DNA of 64,000 bases from Burkholderiales bacterium 39-55-53. Lineage in GTDB: Bacteria; Pseudomonadota; Gammaproteobacteria; Burkholderiales; Burkholderiaceae_C. A program made the position numbers and the translations under genes. Location of the stretch: contig NCJK01000001.1 of NCBI GenBank assembly GCA_002282445.1, positions 124,001-188,000 on the forward strand, in the 5' to 3' direction. Positions 41,998 through 50,299 of this stretch are shown here, piece after piece. The number at the start of each line of letters is the position of its first letter. The stretch's first letter is position 1. The notes beneath the pieces were generated by a model, which worked only from the letters and a program-made list of their open reading frames with translations, had not been told where the DNA came from and searched no databases.

Positions 41998-42507
41998 TTA
42001 ATCTCGCGCACCCTTTGGCTTTGCAAAGCCAGCATCCACCCACGCCTGCGCCGTATTGCGGTTGAGCTTGTAGCCCGCGTCCACACGCACTTCGGCCAGT
42101 GTGTCACCGCCCTCGTCTTGCGCGCTGAGTGTGGCGTGGGGGTTGTCGTCATCGGGCACGATGTCTAGCAGCACCGTGATGCGACCCTCGCGACCATTCA
42201 CCGTGACCGACTGGTGCAGCGTGGCGTGCAATTGCTGCTCGCTGCGGCGCACAAACTCAGACGCGGTTTTCACCAAGGTGATGAACGCATTGCTATCCAG
42301 CGGCTTGGGGTTCTTTTTGTCGCGGCCCATGGTCCACGGGCCAATGAGGGCAGCTTCAGATTCACCGTCTTTGAACATCGCCACCGCCCAGCCGTCGTCA
42401 TCGTCGTTTTTGATGACCTTGGCCGTCCACATTTCGTTTTGCCAGAGGCGCGGCTCTTGCGCGAAGGCGTTGTCATCGAGAGCGTGTTGGGTGTTGTCGT
42501 CGTTCAT
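41998..42507 (-). CDS. conserved hypothetical protein between dusC and the MFS gene
   Basis: An unrecognised 169-residue acidic soluble protein with no signal or membrane segment. The central part (residues 25-130) mixes predicted beta strands (W-T-A-K-V-I-K-N, G-W-A-V-A-M-F, G-R-I-T-V-L-L-D-I-V) with Asp-rich loops. Its start overlaps the dusC stop by four bases, implying translational coupling to a tRNA-modifying enzyme. Confidence 0.65.
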   Translation of the reverse strand: MNDDNTQHALDDNAFAQEPRLWQNEMWTAKVIKNDDDDGWAVAMFKDGESEAALIGPWTMGRDKKNPKPLDSNAFITLVKTASEFVRRSEQQLHATLHQSVTVNGREGRITVLLDIVPDDDNPHATLSAQDEGGDTLAEVRVDAGYKLNRNTAQAWVDAGFAKPKGARD

Positions 42508-43472
42508 TGTTGTGCAGGCATGGCATCAAACCAAGCATTGATGTCTTTAGGGCTGGTCAAGGTGCGCACATGCATGTAGGCGGCCTCAGCCTCGGGGTAA
42601 TGCTTGCGCAAGAAGTTCAGCCATTGTTTCAAGCGCCCCGCTTGGTGACGCTCGCTCACATGGCCCGACACGATTTGCCAAAACGTGAGCAGGTGCGGCG
42701 GCAGGTCTTGCCAGCGCACTTGCGCAGAGGGTGCGGCCAAACCATTCGCAGCAGCATCGTTCGCTTGAATGTCCCAGCCTAGGCCGGGGTTGGTCACAAT
42801 GCCGCGGCCCAACATCAAATCAAAGCAGCCTGATTCAGCACGCGCGTTGATGGCGTCTTGCAGATTCCAAATTTCGCCATTCGCCACCAGCGGTGTTTTC
42901 ACCTTGGCTTTGATGTCGGCAATGCGATGCCAATACGCTGGCGGTCGATAGGCGTCGGCCTTGGTACGTGCGTGCACCACGATCTCGCTGGCCCCACCCG
43001 CCTCTAACGCCAAAGCGCACTCTTCCGCCGTGCTGTCGTCGTTAAAGCCCAAGCGCATCTTGGCCGACACCACTTGGTGCGCGGGCACTGCGGCACGGAC
43101 GGCTCGCACAATTTGGTACAGCACTTCTGGGTCTTGCAGCAGCACCGAGCCACCGCCGTGGCGGTTCACTTGTTTGGCGGGGCAGCCAAAGTTCAGGTCT
43201 ACCCCATCGCAGCCCATGCCCGCCACACGCGCGGCGTTGTCGGCCAAACATTGGGGGTCTGACCCCAATAACTGTGGGCGCACAGGCACACCCGCAAAGG
43301 TGCGGCCGCCATTGGTCAGCTCGGGCACGATGCGCAAAAACGTGCGCTCGGGCAGCAAGGTGTTGGTGACGCGGATGAACTCTGACACGCAACGGTCCAC
43401 CCCGCCGATGCGGGTCAGCACGTCGCGCAGCACAAAGTCGAGCAAGCCCTCCATCGGGGCAAGAATGAGCAT
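42504..43472 (-). CDS. dusC: tRNA-dihydrouridine synthase, DusC type
   Basis: A 322-residue FMN-dependent Dus enzyme that reduces uridine in the tRNA D-loop, U16 in E. coli DusC. The FMN-binding A-P-M-E-G start, catalytic Cys97 in N-F-G-C-P-A-K (Cys98 in E. coli DusC), the K-M-R-L-G motif, H-A-R-T and G-R-G motifs are present. Gly/His-rich N-R-H-G-G-G-S after the active site favours DusC over DusA/DusB. First gene of an operon with a hypothetical and an MFS gene. Confidence 0.92.
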   Translation of the reverse strand: MLILAPMEGLLDFVLRDVLTRIGGVDRCVSEFIRVTNTLLPERTFLRIVPELTNGGRTFAGVPVRPQLLGSDPQCLADNAARVAGMGCDGVDLNFGCPAKQVNRHGGGSVLLQDPEVLYQIVRAVRAAVPAHQVVSAKMRLGFNDDSTAEECALALEAGGASEIVVHARTKADAYRPPAYWHRIADIKAKVKTPLVANGEIWNLQDAINARAESGCFDLMLGRGIVTNPGLGWDIQANDAAANGLAAPSAQVRWQDLPPHLLTFWQIVSGHVSERHQAGRLKQWLNFLRKHYPEAEAAYMHVRTLTSPKDINAWFDAMPAQQ

Positions 43473-43596: not shown

Positions 43597-44121
43597 ATGT
43601 CCGAATTGACTACTGTTGAAGTCCGTCCCGCCACCATGCGCGACGCCGCCAAAATCGCCGAGCTGTACGCCGCCACTGCCAAAGAAGCTTTCAAAACCAT
43701 GCAAACAGGCGCCAAAGTGCTGCCTGTGCCCGAAGAAAAAAACACCGTTTACTGGCGCGAAGCCATTGAATACACCGAGCCCCAAGTGCAAGTCGCCGTT
43801 GACGGCAGCAAGATCGTGGGCTTTGTGGGCTACGACCGCTCACGCGACAAAGGCACACCCAACACACTCGGCGAAATTTGGGACATCTATGTGGATGCCG
43901 CTTACTGGGGCAAAGGCGTGGGCCTAGCTTTGTGGGACGCTGCCCGCGAAGGCCTGCAAGAAGAAGGCTGCACCCATGTGTCCATCTGGGTGCCCATCGC
44001 CAACGACCGCGCCATGCGCTTTCACGAGTTGGCTGGCTTCAAACGCGAAATGTCTAGCGCCAAGACCGTGCCCATGGGCCCCGTCAAGGTCGAAGAGATT
44101 CGCCTGAAACAACCGCTTTAA
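43597..44121 (+). CDS. GNAT-family N-acetyltransferase
   Basis: A 174-residue GCN5-related acetyltransferase: V-R-P-A-T-M-R-D-A at the N-terminus, the strand I-W-D-I-Y-V-D, acetyl-CoA loop Y-W-G-K-G-V-G-L-A-L near residue 109 and the C-terminal F-H-E-L-A-G-F-K-R. The substrate could be a small molecule or a protein N-terminus or lysine. It opens a plus-strand cluster: the J-domain gene starts 6 bases after its stop. Divergent from dusC. Confidence 0.88.
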   Translation: MSELTTVEVRPATMRDAAKIAELYAATAKEAFKTMQTGAKVLPVPEEKNTVYWREAIEYTEPQVQVAVDGSKIVGFVGYDRSRDKGTPNTLGEIWDIYVDAAYWGKGVGLALWDAAREGLQEEGCTHVSIWVPIANDRAMRFHELAGFKREMSSAKTVPMGPVKVEEIRLKQPL

Positions 44122-44127
44122 TTTTTC

Positions 44128-44412
44128 ATGTCTGAACACTACGCCGCCTTAGGTCTCAAAAGCGATGCCACGCTGTCGGACATCAAAAAAGCGTTTCGCC
44201 AAAAAGCCTCGCAGTTTCATCCGGACCGCAACAGCGACCCCGATGCGCCTGCTCGTTTTCGCGAAGTGCAAGAGGCCTATGACGTGCTGTCAGACGACGA
44301 CAAACGCAAAGCCTATGACGACAACCGTCGCCGCAACCTGCTGGACGACCCCGCACAAACCGCGCGCGAAATTTGGCTAGGCTACTTTCAGCAAGTGCTG
44401 AACCGGACATAA
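44128..44412 (+). CDS. minimal J-domain (DnaJ-like) co-chaperone
   Basis: A 94-residue protein made almost entirely of a J-domain: Y-A-A-L-G-L, helix II, the H-P-D motif at residues 31-33, then helix III with Y-D-V-L-S-D and a short tail of about 25 residues. It lacks the G/F region, zinc fingers and client-binding domains of DnaJ. It should stimulate the ATPase of DnaK/HscA-type Hsp70 and recruit it to a specific partner. No Hsp70 gene is near. Packed 6 bases after the GNAT gene and 6 before the next gene. Confidence 0.9.
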   Translation: MSEHYAALGLKSDATLSDIKKAFRQKASQFHPDRNSDPDAPARFREVQEAYDVLSDDDKRKAYDDNRRRNLLDDPAQTAREIWLGYFQQVLNRT

Positions 44413-44418
44413 ACAACC

Positions 44419-44979
44419 ATGAGCATTTCCCCATTCTTCCAAGAGCTGCGCTCTGCCTACCAAGCCGAGTTGGACGACCTCAACTCTGACTCCGAAGGCC
44501 ACTACATCCTCGACAAGCGCTTGGCTGAAAAGCGCAAAGAGTTGGACTTCTTGTTGCAAATGATGGACCTCAGCCCCGAGATGGTGGCCGTGGTCTTGCA
44601 CCAAGCGTTTGAGTTTCATGAGCCCGAATTGATGGCCCACTTCATCACTCGCGATGCGGATGACTTGCTGAGCTGGGAAGCTTTGTCTGAAGGCGTGCGC
44701 ATTGCACCGTGGGCACAGCCTATGGTGAATCAAATCTTGGCCGAGCCTGTGGGCGCTTGGTTCATGACCGTGGCCGCTGCACTCGAATACATGCATGGCA
44801 CGCCTATGCGAGCTGGATTACACGGTGGTGCACAGTCAAACGAGGCTGATGCCGATGAAGATTTGCAAAACGTCGAGCGTGGCGACCAAGCCGAGGATGA
44901 CGAAGAGCGCGAAGCCCGTGAACGCGAAGAAGCGGGCAACGCGTGGATGGTCGAACAAGGCTTCGACAGCAAAGAATAA
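44419..44979 (+). CDS. hypothetical acidic protein of the J-domain cluster (186 aa)
   Basis: Unrecognised. The first 130 residues look helical (F-F-Q-E-L-R-S-A-Y-Q-A-E-L onward, with a Leu/Met-rich stretch near 40-60); from about residue 135 to the end it is strongly acidic (repeated D/E runs) and likely disordered. No signal peptide, membrane helix or cysteine motif. It starts 6 bases after the J-domain gene and ends 9 before the next gene. Base and codon use match the neighbours, so nothing suggests recent transfer. Confidence 0.65.
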   Translation: MSISPFFQELRSAYQAELDDLNSDSEGHYILDKRLAEKRKELDFLLQMMDLSPEMVAVVLHQAFEFHEPELMAHFITRDADDLLSWEALSEGVRIAPWAQPMVNQILAEPVGAWFMTVAAALEYMHGTPMRAGLHGGAQSNEADADEDLQNVERGDQAEDDEEREAREREEAGNAWMVEQGFDSKE

Positions 44980-44988
44980 GGAATTGCC

Positions 44989-45744
44989 ATGACCGACAAA
45001 ACAAACGCCATCGCACTGATTACCAAAACGCAAAGCCTCATCGCCGCTGGCGACATCACGGGCGCTGAAGCTGCGTTGGTTGAGTTAGCCGATGCCGAAG
45101 GCGATCAAGCACTGATGGTGGTGCTGGAGCAGCTCCCACCCAAAGACATCTTGGCCGTTATTCGCGAGTACGACACCTCCAAAGAATCGGTCATCAACCT
45201 GCTGGTCACGCCCGAGCAATTTGCCCGCGCCGTGGTGATTGAAAAACAATACAAAGACCTCACCCGCACTCACTTGCGCGGCATGATGAACTCCATCATC
45301 TTTCGCGAAGACGCAGACACGGTTGAGTTCCTCACCGCCATTGGCGATCTTGAAGGCGGCGCTGAAGCCCTGGCCGACTACTTCAGCGAAAAGTGGAGCC
45401 GCATCGAAGCCTTCGCCCGCACAGGCACATTCGACACCATGGAAGACGACGGAGACATGCTGTCTGAAAGCGCCCTGCTCGGCTCGGCCTATGTGAAGCC
45501 CCGCGTTGAAGAAGACGAAGTAGCCGACCAAGACTGGATGCAACTCGCTTGGATCTTGCGCCACAAAATTCCAGACCTCTTCATCGAAATGCTCTTGGTG
45601 CTGCGCGCCAAAGCACGCGCCCACGATGCGGGCCTGTCGGAAGAAGACGAGGAAGAAGACGATGGCAAGGTCGAAACCAGCGCCACCGACCGTGGCCAAG
45701 CCACACCCGCCGCGCGTGACTCGGACGAAGAGTCAGCCATCTAA
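44989..45744 (+). CDS. hypothetical helical protein of the J-domain cluster (251 aa)
   Basis: Unrecognised 251-residue soluble protein. Residues 1-130 look like tandem helical hairpins, including L-E-Q-L-P-P-K-D-I-L-A-V-I near 45-57 and V-T-P-E-Q-F near 72. That rhythm is reminiscent of MgtE-N/HEAT-like superhelices, a resemblance of pattern only. The C-terminal 40 residues are acidic then polar (S-E-E-D-E-E-E-D-D). No secretion signal. AAGGAATT before the ATG is a plausible ribosome-binding site. The next gene starts 11 bases after its stop. Confidence 0.65.
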   Translation: MTDKTNAIALITKTQSLIAAGDITGAEAALVELADAEGDQALMVVLEQLPPKDILAVIREYDTSKESVINLLVTPEQFARAVVIEKQYKDLTRTHLRGMMNSIIFREDADTVEFLTAIGDLEGGAEALADYFSEKWSRIEAFARTGTFDTMEDDGDMLSESALLGSAYVKPRVEEDEVADQDWMQLAWILRHKIPDLFIEMLLVLRAKARAHDAGLSEEDEEEDDGKVETSATDRGQATPAARDSDEESAI

Positions 45745-45755
45745 GCGTAGTGACC

Positions 45756-46961
45756 ATGACGCAATCTGTTGTTGCCCTTTTTGATGACCGCCCTTTCTTT
45801 GAAAAGGCGGTTGCCTACGGTGTGCAACACGGCGTGTTGGACCAAGCCAAACTAGACGCCATCCAAACCGATGCACCCAAAGGGATGGTGCAAATTGCGC
45901 GTTACTTTGGCAGCGAGTTCTTGCGCCCCGAGCTTGAGAAAGCCAAGGACCGCATCGTCAACATGGTCAGCCTTACCCTGCAAATTCAAAGCGGTGGGGA
46001 CTTGAGAAAAGCTGCAGAGCATTTGCGCGAGCATTCGTTCATGTCACGCTCTAAAGCAGCATCAGATATGCTCAAAGCCCTCATCGTCATGCCGCAAAAC
46101 ACGCACTTTGGGATGAACGAGCATGGCAGCTTTAGCGACAAACACATTCCACAACTAGCCAAGTGGTCGCTGTGCAATTTGGCCGAGTACCAAGCCGAGC
46201 TGGCCAAGCGCCAACAAGTGGCCCACGTCATCGACGCCGCCATTTGGATGGCCGACGAGCTGGGCCTCCACGCCGACGATTTAGAAGAAGCCGGCTGCGA
46301 TGCCGAAGCCGTCATTCGCACGGCCTTGTTGGCAGCTGCCACCAAACACAAAGAAATGCCAGACTGGGTGGCCTTCCAAAAAATCATCGCCACCCTGCGC
46401 AAACCCAGCGCCACCAAAGCCATCAACTTGGCTGCGCCTAAAAACCTGCCAGCTGAGTTCAAGGCTGCAGTCGAACAAGTGCGACAAAGCGTGGAAGCCG
46501 ACTTACCCAAAATTTTGGACGCCAAACTCACACCGCAAAAGTTGTTCAACCAAACACCGGCTTTTGTAGGCCGTTACTTTTGGGTGGAAGACGGTTTGTC
46601 CGAGGTCGACCACTTTGACCGCCAAACCTCTGCCGCGTGGACCAAAGCCACCGGCGGCCACAGCGACGACAGCTCGTTGCTCACGCTCTTCTTGTGCATT
46701 GCCACGGGCAGCACAGGCAAAACATTGCTGACCGAAAAAACCGCTGCCACGCTGATTCGCAAAATCCGCAAATCAGGCGTGCAGCCCGAGCTGGCCACTG
46801 AGTTCATCCAAGCTAATGCACCGACTGAGCATCAAGACGATTACATCGACATGTGGGAAGCCTTCATCGACGAATCGCTGGACACGCTGGCGAGTGACCA
46901 CGATTACAAACTGCATGATGCGCTGTCGCTGCTCAGGCGCGAGTGCAATGTGGCTGAGTAA
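45756..46961 (+). CDS. hypothetical protein of the J-domain cluster (401 aa)
   Basis: Unrecognised 401-residue soluble, mainly helical protein, last gene of the cluster. The N-terminal R-P-F-F-E-K-A-V-A-Y-G-V-Q-H-G and the Leu/Lys-rich middle suggest an alpha-solenoid or multi-helix scaffold. There is no catalytic motif, signal peptide or membrane segment. A GTG at 45750 is in frame, but ATG 45756 is preferred; neither has a strong ribosome-binding site, so it may rely on read-through from the upstream gene. Convergent with the beta-barrel gene, only 3 bases between stops. Confidence 0.65.
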   Translation: MTQSVVALFDDRPFFEKAVAYGVQHGVLDQAKLDAIQTDAPKGMVQIARYFGSEFLRPELEKAKDRIVNMVSLTLQIQSGGDLRKAAEHLREHSFMSRSKAASDMLKALIVMPQNTHFGMNEHGSFSDKHIPQLAKWSLCNLAEYQAELAKRQQVAHVIDAAIWMADELGLHADDLEEAGCDAEAVIRTALLAAATKHKEMPDWVAFQKIIATLRKPSATKAINLAAPKNLPAEFKAAVEQVRQSVEADLPKILDAKLTPQKLFNQTPAFVGRYFWVEDGLSEVDHFDRQTSAAWTKATGGHSDDSSLLTLFLCIATGSTGKTLLTEKTAATLIRKIRKSGVQPELATEFIQANAPTEHQDDYIDMWEAFIDESLDTLASDHDYKLHDALSLLRRECNVAE

Positions 46962-48785: not shown

Positions 48786-49514
48786 ATGTCTCATGCCGTC
48801 GCCAGCCTCCGGGCCACACGCCTAGCCCGCAGCGTCAAACCCTTTTTAGCCCGTGGCGGCCCCAAAGGTGAACGCTGCAGCGGTTGCCGCCTAGTGCCCT
48901 CACACTGCCTCTGCAAGCTACGCCCCAACGTGCCCACCCGCGCCGGCATGTGTTTGCTCATGGCTGATATCGAGCCACTCAAACCCAGTAACACCGGCTG
49001 GTTGATTGCCGATGTGGTGGCCGACACCTTTGCCTTTGGCTGGGCGCGCACCGAAGTTGACCCTGCGCTGTTGGCGCTGTTGAGTGACCCGCAATGGCAA
49101 CCCTATGTGGTGTTCCCTGCTGAATTTGCAGATGACGCGCGCGTGGTGCATGAGGTCTCGCACAACGCCAACACGCAACCTGAGAAGCGCCCCTTGTTCA
49201 TCCTGCTAGACGGCACATGGGACGAAGCGCGCAAGATGTTTCGCAAAAGCCCCTACCTGCAAAACTTCCCCGTGCTCAGCCTGCAGCCAGAACACCTCTC
49301 ACGCTACAAACTGCGCCGCGCCCAAAGCGAAGCGCACCTGTGCACCGCCGAAGTGGGCGCGATGTGTTTGGCACTAGCGAACGACACCCAAGCCGCGGAA
49401 GCCCTCAACGCCTACTTTGAAGTGTTCACCGAGCACTACCTCAAAGCCAAGCAACAACTCCCCGTCGATTTGACAGATGACATCCACTTGCGGCTACAAG
49501 CACGAATGCTTTAG
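48786..49514 (+). CDS. DTW-domain tRNA-uridine aminocarboxypropyltransferase
   Basis: A 242-residue DTW-domain protein of the TapT/YfiP family, whose characterised members add 3-amino-3-carboxypropyl from SAM to uridine in tRNA. The N-terminal zinc-type cysteines are C31, C34, C41 and C43. The SAM-loop region carries the K-P-S-N-T-G motif (66-71), and the D-G-T-W signature is at 142-145. It is divergent from the exported-protein/barrel pair across a 100-base A+T-rich gap. Confidence 0.88.
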   Translation: MSHAVASLRATRLARSVKPFLARGGPKGERCSGCRLVPSHCLCKLRPNVPTRAGMCLLMADIEPLKPSNTGWLIADVVADTFAFGWARTEVDPALLALLSDPQWQPYVVFPAEFADDARVVHEVSHNANTQPEKRPLFILLDGTWDEARKMFRKSPYLQNFPVLSLQPEHLSRYKLRRAQSEAHLCTAEVGAMCLALANDTQAAEALNAYFEVFTEHYLKAKQQLPVDLTDDIHLRLQARML

Positions 49515-49629: not shown

Positions 49630-49977
49630 ATGACGGTAACGCGAAAAATACCAGCCACCTTTTTTCGACAATCAAGTGGTGATGAACCGGTTCGTGATTG
49701 GCTGATCTCGCTCGACAAGGCAGACCGACAAACCATGGGTGAAGACATTGCTTATGTTCAATACAAGTGGCCCATCGGTAAACCCATAGTTGACCACCTT
49801 CGCGGCCCCATATGGGAGGTTCGAAGCAAGATTGGTAATCGGATTGCTCGCGTGTTGTTTGCTGTTGATGACTCAGAAATGTTCCTGCTTCACGGCTTCA
49901 TCAAGAAAACACAAAAGACAAATCCTGCAGATATTGAACTAGCCATCAAGCGTTTGAAGGAATGGAAAAATGACTAA
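49630..49977 (+). CDS. RelE/HigB-family toxin (Gp49-like)
   Basis: A 115-residue protein of the Gp49/RelE-ParE superfamily: P-V-R-D-W-L-I-S-L near residue 21, an L-R-G-P-I-W-E-V-R-S strand and F-L-L-H-G-F-I-K-K near the C-terminus, which are the hallmark motifs. Such toxins cleave mRNA at the ribosome. Toxin comes first and overlaps the antitoxin gene by 8 bases, the HigBA order. A+T-richer than its surroundings, as usual for mobile toxin-antitoxin pairs. Confidence 0.85.
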   Translation: MTVTRKIPATFFRQSSGDEPVRDWLISLDKADRQTMGEDIAYVQYKWPIGKPIVDHLRGPIWEVRSKIGNRIARVLFAVDDSEMFLLHGFIKKTQKTNPADIELAIKRLKEWKND

Positions 49978-50299
49978 GGCATCTAAAGTAAATCCACATC
50001 GCGGTAGCAACTTTGATGACTTCTTGAAAGAAGAAGGCATCTACAGCGATGTCCAAGCACGTGCCCTCAAACGCGCTTTGGCAGAGCAACTGGATGAAGC
50101 CATGCAAAGCGGCAAGCTCAGTAAGGTCCATATGGCGCAACGCATGGCTACCAGCCGCTCACAGCTTGACCGCGTGCTTGACCCCACCAATTTATCGATT
50201 CAACTCGACACACTCATCAAGGCCGCCAGTGCCGTAGGCCGTACTGTCGAAATTCGATTAAAGCGAAATACCAAGCGCACACGAATAACAGCCGCCTAA
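49970..50299 (+). CDS. XRE-type HTH antitoxin
   Basis: A 109-residue partner of the upstream toxin. Residues 40-95 form a Cro/CI-like helix-turn-helix (K-V-H-M-A-Q-R-M-A-T-S-R-S-Q-L-D-R-V-L), preceded by an N-terminal region that would bind the toxin and followed by a basic tail. It should neutralise the toxin and repress the operon through the palindromes at 49572-49621. The start overlaps the toxin stop by 8 bases. Confidence 0.85.
   Translation: MTKASKVNPHRGSNFDDFLKEEGIYSDVQARALKRALAEQLDEAMQSGKLSKVHMAQRMATSRSQLDRVLDPTNLSIQLDTLIKAASAVGRTVEIRLKRNTKRTRITAA

Follow-up and report, generated by a model that had tools for sequence, protein, structure and literature searches.

A probable diverged atcJABC operon in a Burkholderiales genome and its candidate role in recruiting DnaK

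What does a minimal J-domain protein serve when it is encoded directly ahead of three proteins that belong to no recognised family? The question is raised by five consecutive genes in the 64,000-nucleotide stretch of DNA analysed here (the window; contig NCJK01000001.1, positions 124,001 to 188,000, Burkholderiales bacterium 39-55-53), in which a GNAT-family acetyltransferase gene is followed by the J-protein gene (gene 2) and by the genes of proteins 3, 4 and 5. An initial annotation, made by a model from the letters and their reading frames, had proposed a dedicated Hsp70 recruitment module. The present analysis supports that class of function through homology to a characterised system: genes 2 to 5 appear to form a diverged atcJABC operon that would act, by analogy with Shewanella oneidensis, as a DnaK-recruitment chain for growth in the cold, a reading to which we assign a probability of about 0.82.

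In S. oneidensis, Maillot et al. 2019 (PMC6715715) describe AtcJ as a 94-residue protein composed of a J-domain and a 21-residue extension, which works with DnaK and binds AtcC through that extension, with a dissociation constant of 7 nM for AtcJ. AtcC in turn binds AtcB, and mutants without J, B or C grow far more poorly in the cold, the abstract naming J, B and C, not A, as requirements for cold growth. The same study reports that atc synteny is kept across a comparison of 80 genomes of Shewanella, Moritella and Aeromonas. A meeting report places AtcB in contact with RNA polymerase (PMC7871303), and a further source is cited on the function of a characterised Atc relative (PMC10939069).

Profile evidence for an Atc-type operon

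The identification is carried by a comparison of window-type profiles with the single sequences of a reference operon in hhalign, with shuffles as the null. The reference operon (L156, genome G908) is gammaproteobacterial and comes from a class sample of 299 genomes, in which it is the only one with an AtcC above the curated cut-off. It passes all four NCBIfam equivalog cut-offs, scoring 183 bits for AtcJ (NF050028, cut-off 150), 287 for AtcA (NF047888, cut-off 200), 473 for AtcB (NF047889, cut-off 440) and 496 for AtcC (NF047890, cut-off 370). Analysis reveals that each of proteins 3 to 5 aligns with its own counterpart: A with A across 82 columns (88.4%, score 43), B with B across 105 columns (60.6%, score 37) and C with C across 83 N-terminal columns (92.9%, score 56), none of 100 shuffles reaching the score in any pair (E-values in Table 1). 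The six off-diagonal window-type pairs score 7–15, inside their own shuffle range. Judged by these profiles, proteins 3, 4 and 5 are homologous to AtcA, AtcB and AtcC, and the cluster is a known kind of system whose relatives become visible only by profile comparison. The earlier statement that the three proteins lack a known motif therefore holds for Pfam, where none of them matches a family above cut-off, but not for profile comparison, which places them among relatives of the Atc system. A search of the 299-genome sample returned four matches, namely the window, G572, the reference genome G908 and G1126, the last at 24.8 bits across two stops and with neighbours that look unrelated by eye.

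The J-protein consists of an HPD-bearing J-domain and a C-terminal extension of ~21 residues and nothing more, as the initial annotation had recognised. It matches the AtcJ model along its entire length at 61.9 bits, of which the J-domain alone provides 49.8 and the tail a further 12.1, whereas the genome's own DnaJ scores 61.0 bits with or without the sequence that follows its J-domain. The spread of these features is assessed in loci found through AtcB: the named scan yielded at least 289 relatives, and the best 80 were kept as loci for the counts. All 77 J-proteins recovered from these 80 named loci carry both the HPD and a P-x7-W motif in the tail, the remaining three loci giving no J-protein where the contig ends or cuts the gene. 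The motif is present in the reference operon as well, and in 11 of 15 J-proteins from 16 further window-type loci of a 399-genome Burkholderiales sample. In some Burkholderiales families the tail tryptophan is replaced by serine (L053), alanine (L056 and L057) or phenylalanine (L059) while the operon is retained. Weber et al. reportedly described, in Environ Microbiol in 2023, an AtcJ subfamily whose tail bears PX7W and which is said to occur mostly in aquatic beta- and gammaproteobacteria and to be encoded with atcA, atcB and atcC; by this definition, P75 and W83 place the window J-protein within it.

The AtcA-like protein contains an acidic stretch and, at its C-terminus, a QGF motif retained in most relatives. 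The AtcB model is all-helical, with a predicted local distance difference test score (pLDDT) of 73 that falls below 50 at residues 220–251, where a predicted disordered acidic tail ends in EESAI. This ending follows a variable disordered stretch in the relatives too, as EESAI in 75 of 80 and EELAI in four of 80, and the near-invariant terminus looks like a short binding motif. The AtcC model is nearly all-helical and has two parts (pLDDT 88, predicted template modelling score 0.64), helices 282–398 being set off at a low-confidence break at residues 283–289. The helical character noted initially agrees with the models obtained for proteins 4 and 5, and the acidic character applies to proteins 3 and 4 (isoelectric points 4.30 and 4.26) but much less to protein 5 (5.57). 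Foldseek finds no PDB match at E 0.001 or better for the AtcB and AtcC models, so no function is drawn from the fold, and a PDB sequence search with A, B and C gives no convincing E-value, the best for AtcB being the MgtE N-domain at E 0.046. In one Polaromonas metagenome bin (L132:4989-5765), the AtcB frame contains an in-frame stop at codon 34, either real or an assembly error.

Additionally, a second and more distant J-A-B-C type is found in Burkholderiales (L060–L069), with AtcC of 286–305 residues in the six loci aligned and with DIFS or DIFA as the AtcB C-terminus; six of these ten loci have alanine in place of the tail proline. By profile, B and C of this short type share homology with their window-type counterparts (98.1%, E 6.8e-14 and 96.5%, E 8.1e-10) and are probably homologous to the reference operon (B 33.8%, reached by 0 of 100 shuffles; C 82.6%, reached by 0 of 60). 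For its A protein, profile comparison found homology to neither the window nor the reference A, and a search with the short-type AtcC in a phylum sample of 299 genomes returned one match.

Several observations weigh against the identification. None of the window proteins reaches its NCBIfam cut-off, which leaves the cluster outside strict equivalog membership, and proteins 3 and 4 give no match to the AtcA and AtcB models even at E 10. AtcC matches its model at residues 11–98 with 21 bits (E 1.9e-4); as the J and C matches both lie below cut-off, they serve as a lead only. The J-domain match is moreover unspecific by itself, since the genome's own DnaJ reaches 61.0 bits. The hhalign probability for B is modest at 60.6%, and the A, B and C alignments are confined to the column spans given above. 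Shuffles are an imperfect null, because a wrong pair, the short-type A profile against the reference B, beat 100 of 100 with a score of 23.7, although this stays under the window-type scores of 37–56. The window AtcA fails to align with the short-type AtcA (6.9%), residues 270–403 of AtcC have no match in the reference AtcC (0.3%), and, of 37 genomes from the genus, a good many of them incomplete, only five have both atcB and atcC. Because the window proteins remain below the cut-offs and the AtcC-like protein carries an extra helical part of ~120 residues, the cluster is assigned to a diverged branch.

Gene order, spread and the acetyltransferase gene

All five open reading frames are confirmed on the plus strand. 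The intergenic gaps of 6, 6, 9 and 11 bases given initially are reproduced with ATG 45756 as the start of the last gene, which is the likely start; the alternative GTG at 45750 would reduce the last gap to 5. The common codon style is likewise borne out by the GC content at third codon positions (0.64–0.69 in all five). The ratio of nonsynonymous to synonymous substitution rates (dN/dS) is below 0.22 for every gene against five of the ten GNAT-bearing relatives, and the five frames behave as genes under purifying selection. Scans of the sequence detect 0 promoter-like sites, and 4 terminator-like sites where shuffled sequence gives 6.1 on average; none of the five proteins matches a PADLOC anti-phage model at E 0.01.

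Among the 80 loci, the order J-A-B-C is kept in all 69 with enough flank, and where the flank suffices J is present in 75 of 75, A in 78 of 78 and C in 74 of 74. Since the loci were chosen by AtcB, the presence of the other three genes and their order are independent of the choice; the loci are close relatives and not mutually independent. The four genes lie on one strand and are mostly closely spaced; with script-chosen starts, the median gaps are 12, 19 and 26 bases and the outliers reach 730. A J-protein match is near 25 of the 26 non-window loci of the 399-genome sample, the contig of the remaining one (L048) starting before the place of J. In a single arrangement that departs from the order (L062:990-3490), the J gene stands on the opposite strand downstream of A-B-C.

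An AtcB profile matches 27 of the 399 Burkholderiales genomes, ten of these being of the more distant type, and atcB and atcC co-occur in the same seven of 61 relatives. Among the relatives listed by the named scan are Limnohabitans, Rhodoferax, Polaromonas, Curvibacter, Acidovorax and Comamonas, together with numerous metagenome bins; of these, Limnohabitans sp. Jir61 is the nearest named relative, and Limnohabitans B9-3 and Polaromonas glacialis carry the cluster as well. The titles of two relatives (L077 and L121) give pond and groundwater as source habitats. In class samples of 369 genomes each, AtcC and AtcB matched only the window's own genome, and a plasmid search returned neither AtcB nor short-type AtcC. 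Among the papers listed by a literature search none combines Limnohabitans with AtcJ, which does not show that the Limnohabitans operon is unpublished.

The acetyltransferase gene behaves differently from the four genes behind it. It lies upstream of atcJ in 10 of the 73 loci with enough flank, and its presence corresponds to one change on the AtcB+AtcC tree (75 rows; support 99); two loci from other families have no GNAT match. Four of the 37 genomes of the genus, all of them atc-bearing, contain a close GNAT. A divergently oriented dihydrouridine synthase (Dus) gene on the other side of GNAT is present in exactly the same ten loci and has no close copy in any of the 12 atc-negative genomes of the genus examined, and the co-occurrence of GNAT with atc is therefore a clade effect. 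Another neighbouring gene is close in just two of nine genomes of the genus. GNAT is thus rejected as a core member and is a lineage-specific local extra, dispensable for the core mechanism. The single operon proposed initially accordingly stands for genes 2 to 5 but not for the acetyltransferase, and the modification step ascribed to the enzyme finds no support.

Flanking genes are listed with the cluster in Table 1. In an atc-bearing genome of another family (G043), a near full-length GNAT relative (31%) is encoded on the minus strand at L158:4632-5144, unlinked to atc and adjoining what looks by eye like a TetR-like gene.

Table 1. Positions, strands and supporting evidence of the cluster, its motifs and its flanking genes in the window
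Feature	Position	Strand	Basis or remark
GNAT-family acetyltransferase gene	43597..44121	+	PF00583 9.8e-18; lineage-specific first gene, outside core operon
atcJ-like gene, 94-residue J-domain protein (class C)	44128..44412	+	PF00226 1.1e-23; NF050028 AtcJ 61.9 bits
HPD of the J-protein, residues 31-33	44218..44226	+	sequence; HPD in 77/77 relatives
C-terminal extension of the J-protein, corresponding to the S. oneidensis AtcJ tail that binds AtcC	44344..44412	+	homology
P-x7-W in the J-protein tail (P75, W83)	44350-44376	+	sequence
atcA-like gene, 186 residues	44419..44979	+	hhalign 88.4%, E 2.8e-6 to AtcA above NCBIfam cut-off
atcB-like gene, 251 residues	44989..45744	+	hhalign 60.6%, E 8.3e-5
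EESAI at the AtcB C-terminus	45727-45741	+	sequence
atcC-like gene, 401-403 residues	45750..46961	+	NF047890 21 bits, E 1.9e-4; hhalign 92.9%, E 3.7e-7
Additional helices at the C-terminus of the AtcC-like protein, ~residues 282-398	46593..46943	+	model; hhalign mismatch
Dihydrouridine synthase gene (PF01207, Dus)	42507-43472	-	RNA-modification family; beside atc only in the 10 GNAT-bearing loci (flanks <=5 kb)
DTW-domain protein gene (PF03942)	48786-49511	+	RNA-modification family; in 8 of 10 GNAT-bearing loci and in L103 (flanks <=5 kb)
Gp49/HigB-like toxin gene and overlapping helix-turn-helix protein gene	49630-50299	+	PF05973, 1.3e-20; HTH_37, below cut-off; by sequence, likely toxin-antitoxin pair

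Proposed mechanism and alternative explanations

By analogy with S. oneidensis, the J-domain of the short AtcJ-like protein would stimulate DnaK through its HPD, while the P-x7-W tail would tether the protein to the helical AtcC, which would hold AtcB. The AtcC–AtcB pair may then deliver DnaK to one dedicated target, for which RNA polymerase is a candidate, and such targeting would allow growth in the cold; AtcA, an acidic protein, has no assigned role in this scheme. The scheme is based on homology, gene order, the conserved tail and HPD, and purifying selection, and its interactions, DnaK as partner, the phenotype in the cold and RNA polymerase as target are carried over by homology from S. 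oneidensis. That a J-protein so short must draw its specificity from a partner had been anticipated and agrees with the AtcC-binding tail described in PMC6715715. A ribosome-related or assembly task, also considered initially, finds no support: the characterised relative serves cold growth, and a meeting report has its AtcB in contact with RNA polymerase (PMC6715715 and PMC7871303); the ribosome task is rejected, no supporting evidence for it having been found.

The same chain could nevertheless be aimed elsewhere. A homologous DnaK-recruitment module that keeps the J-C-B chain, but whose additional AtcC part and differing AtcB tail would send DnaK in these freshwater bacteria to a target that has nothing to do with growth in the cold, is a tentative possibility. 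It would account for an AtcC part with no counterpart in the reference AtcC, for AtcB C-termini that vary by lineage and for the patchy presence of atc within the genus, and PMC6715715 reports expression of the S. oneidensis operon that is nearly constant from 7 to 37 °C, which leaves room for other roles; yet no positive evidence for another target was found, and the relatives include lineages named after cold habitats, for example Polaromonas glacialis. A more specific proposal, that the long-AtcC branch (AtcC of ~400 residues, AtcB ending in EESAI) found in Burkholderiales is a second DnaK-targeting Atc subtype whose different target is chosen by the added AtcC part and the near-invariant AtcB C-terminus, and which in the Limnohabitans clade has acquired the acetyltransferase as a regulator, is rather unlikely.

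Still less probable is a functional fifth member, in which GNAT would control the module by acetylating DnaK or one of the Atc proteins. Gaps of 3–39 bases to atcJ in all ten GNAT-bearing loci, a dN/dS of 0.07–0.16 against five GNAT-bearing relatives and the confinement of close GNAT copies in the genus to atc-bearing genomes speak for it, but the gene is missing from 63 of 73 loci and belongs to one clade, and the parallel distribution of Dus lets clade membership explain the co-occurrence. Finally, a generic J-protein lying next to helical scaffold proteins that are unrelated to Atc and resemble it in architecture only would be consistent with scores that all lie under the curated cut-offs; this is very improbable in view of counterpart-specific profile matches, off-diagonal window-type pairs at noise, the same gene order and the same tail motif. 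The matches thus lead to a related characterised system and not to unrelated families, the core genes are not scattered, and the initial annotation named the right functional class from gene order alone.

For the diverged atcJABC operon, the profile evidence links an unannotated gene cluster found in freshwater Burkholderiales with the operon that targets Hsp70 in cold-growing Shewanella. The sequenced Limnohabitans strains that carry the cluster (Jir61 and B9-3) make a cold-growth role testable, and the conserved AtcJ P-x7-W and AtcB EESAI tails point to candidate contacts.

Comparison with known systems

The window resembles the HscB–IscU pair, a comparison drawn in PMC6715715, in that a dedicated J-protein is co-encoded with its partner. 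HscB belongs to the class C J-proteins and shares an operon with the client to which it is dedicated, whereas A, B and C of the window match no Isc family in Pfam or NCBIfam. The closer likeness is to the S. oneidensis atcJABC operon of Maillot et al. 2019 (PMC6715715). From this Shewanella type the window differs in its remote similarity, in the GNAT gene placed in front in one clade, in an AtcC that has ~403 residues, compared with 297 in the NCBIfam model, and gains a helical part at its C-terminus, and in the end of AtcB, which reads EESAI in the window type, FSFLD in the reference operon and DIFS or DIFA in the short type. Both share the order J-A-B-C and a 94-residue HPD-bearing J-protein with a tail of ~21 residues, and A, B and C of the window are, by profile, homologous to those of an operon that lies above the Atc cut-offs.

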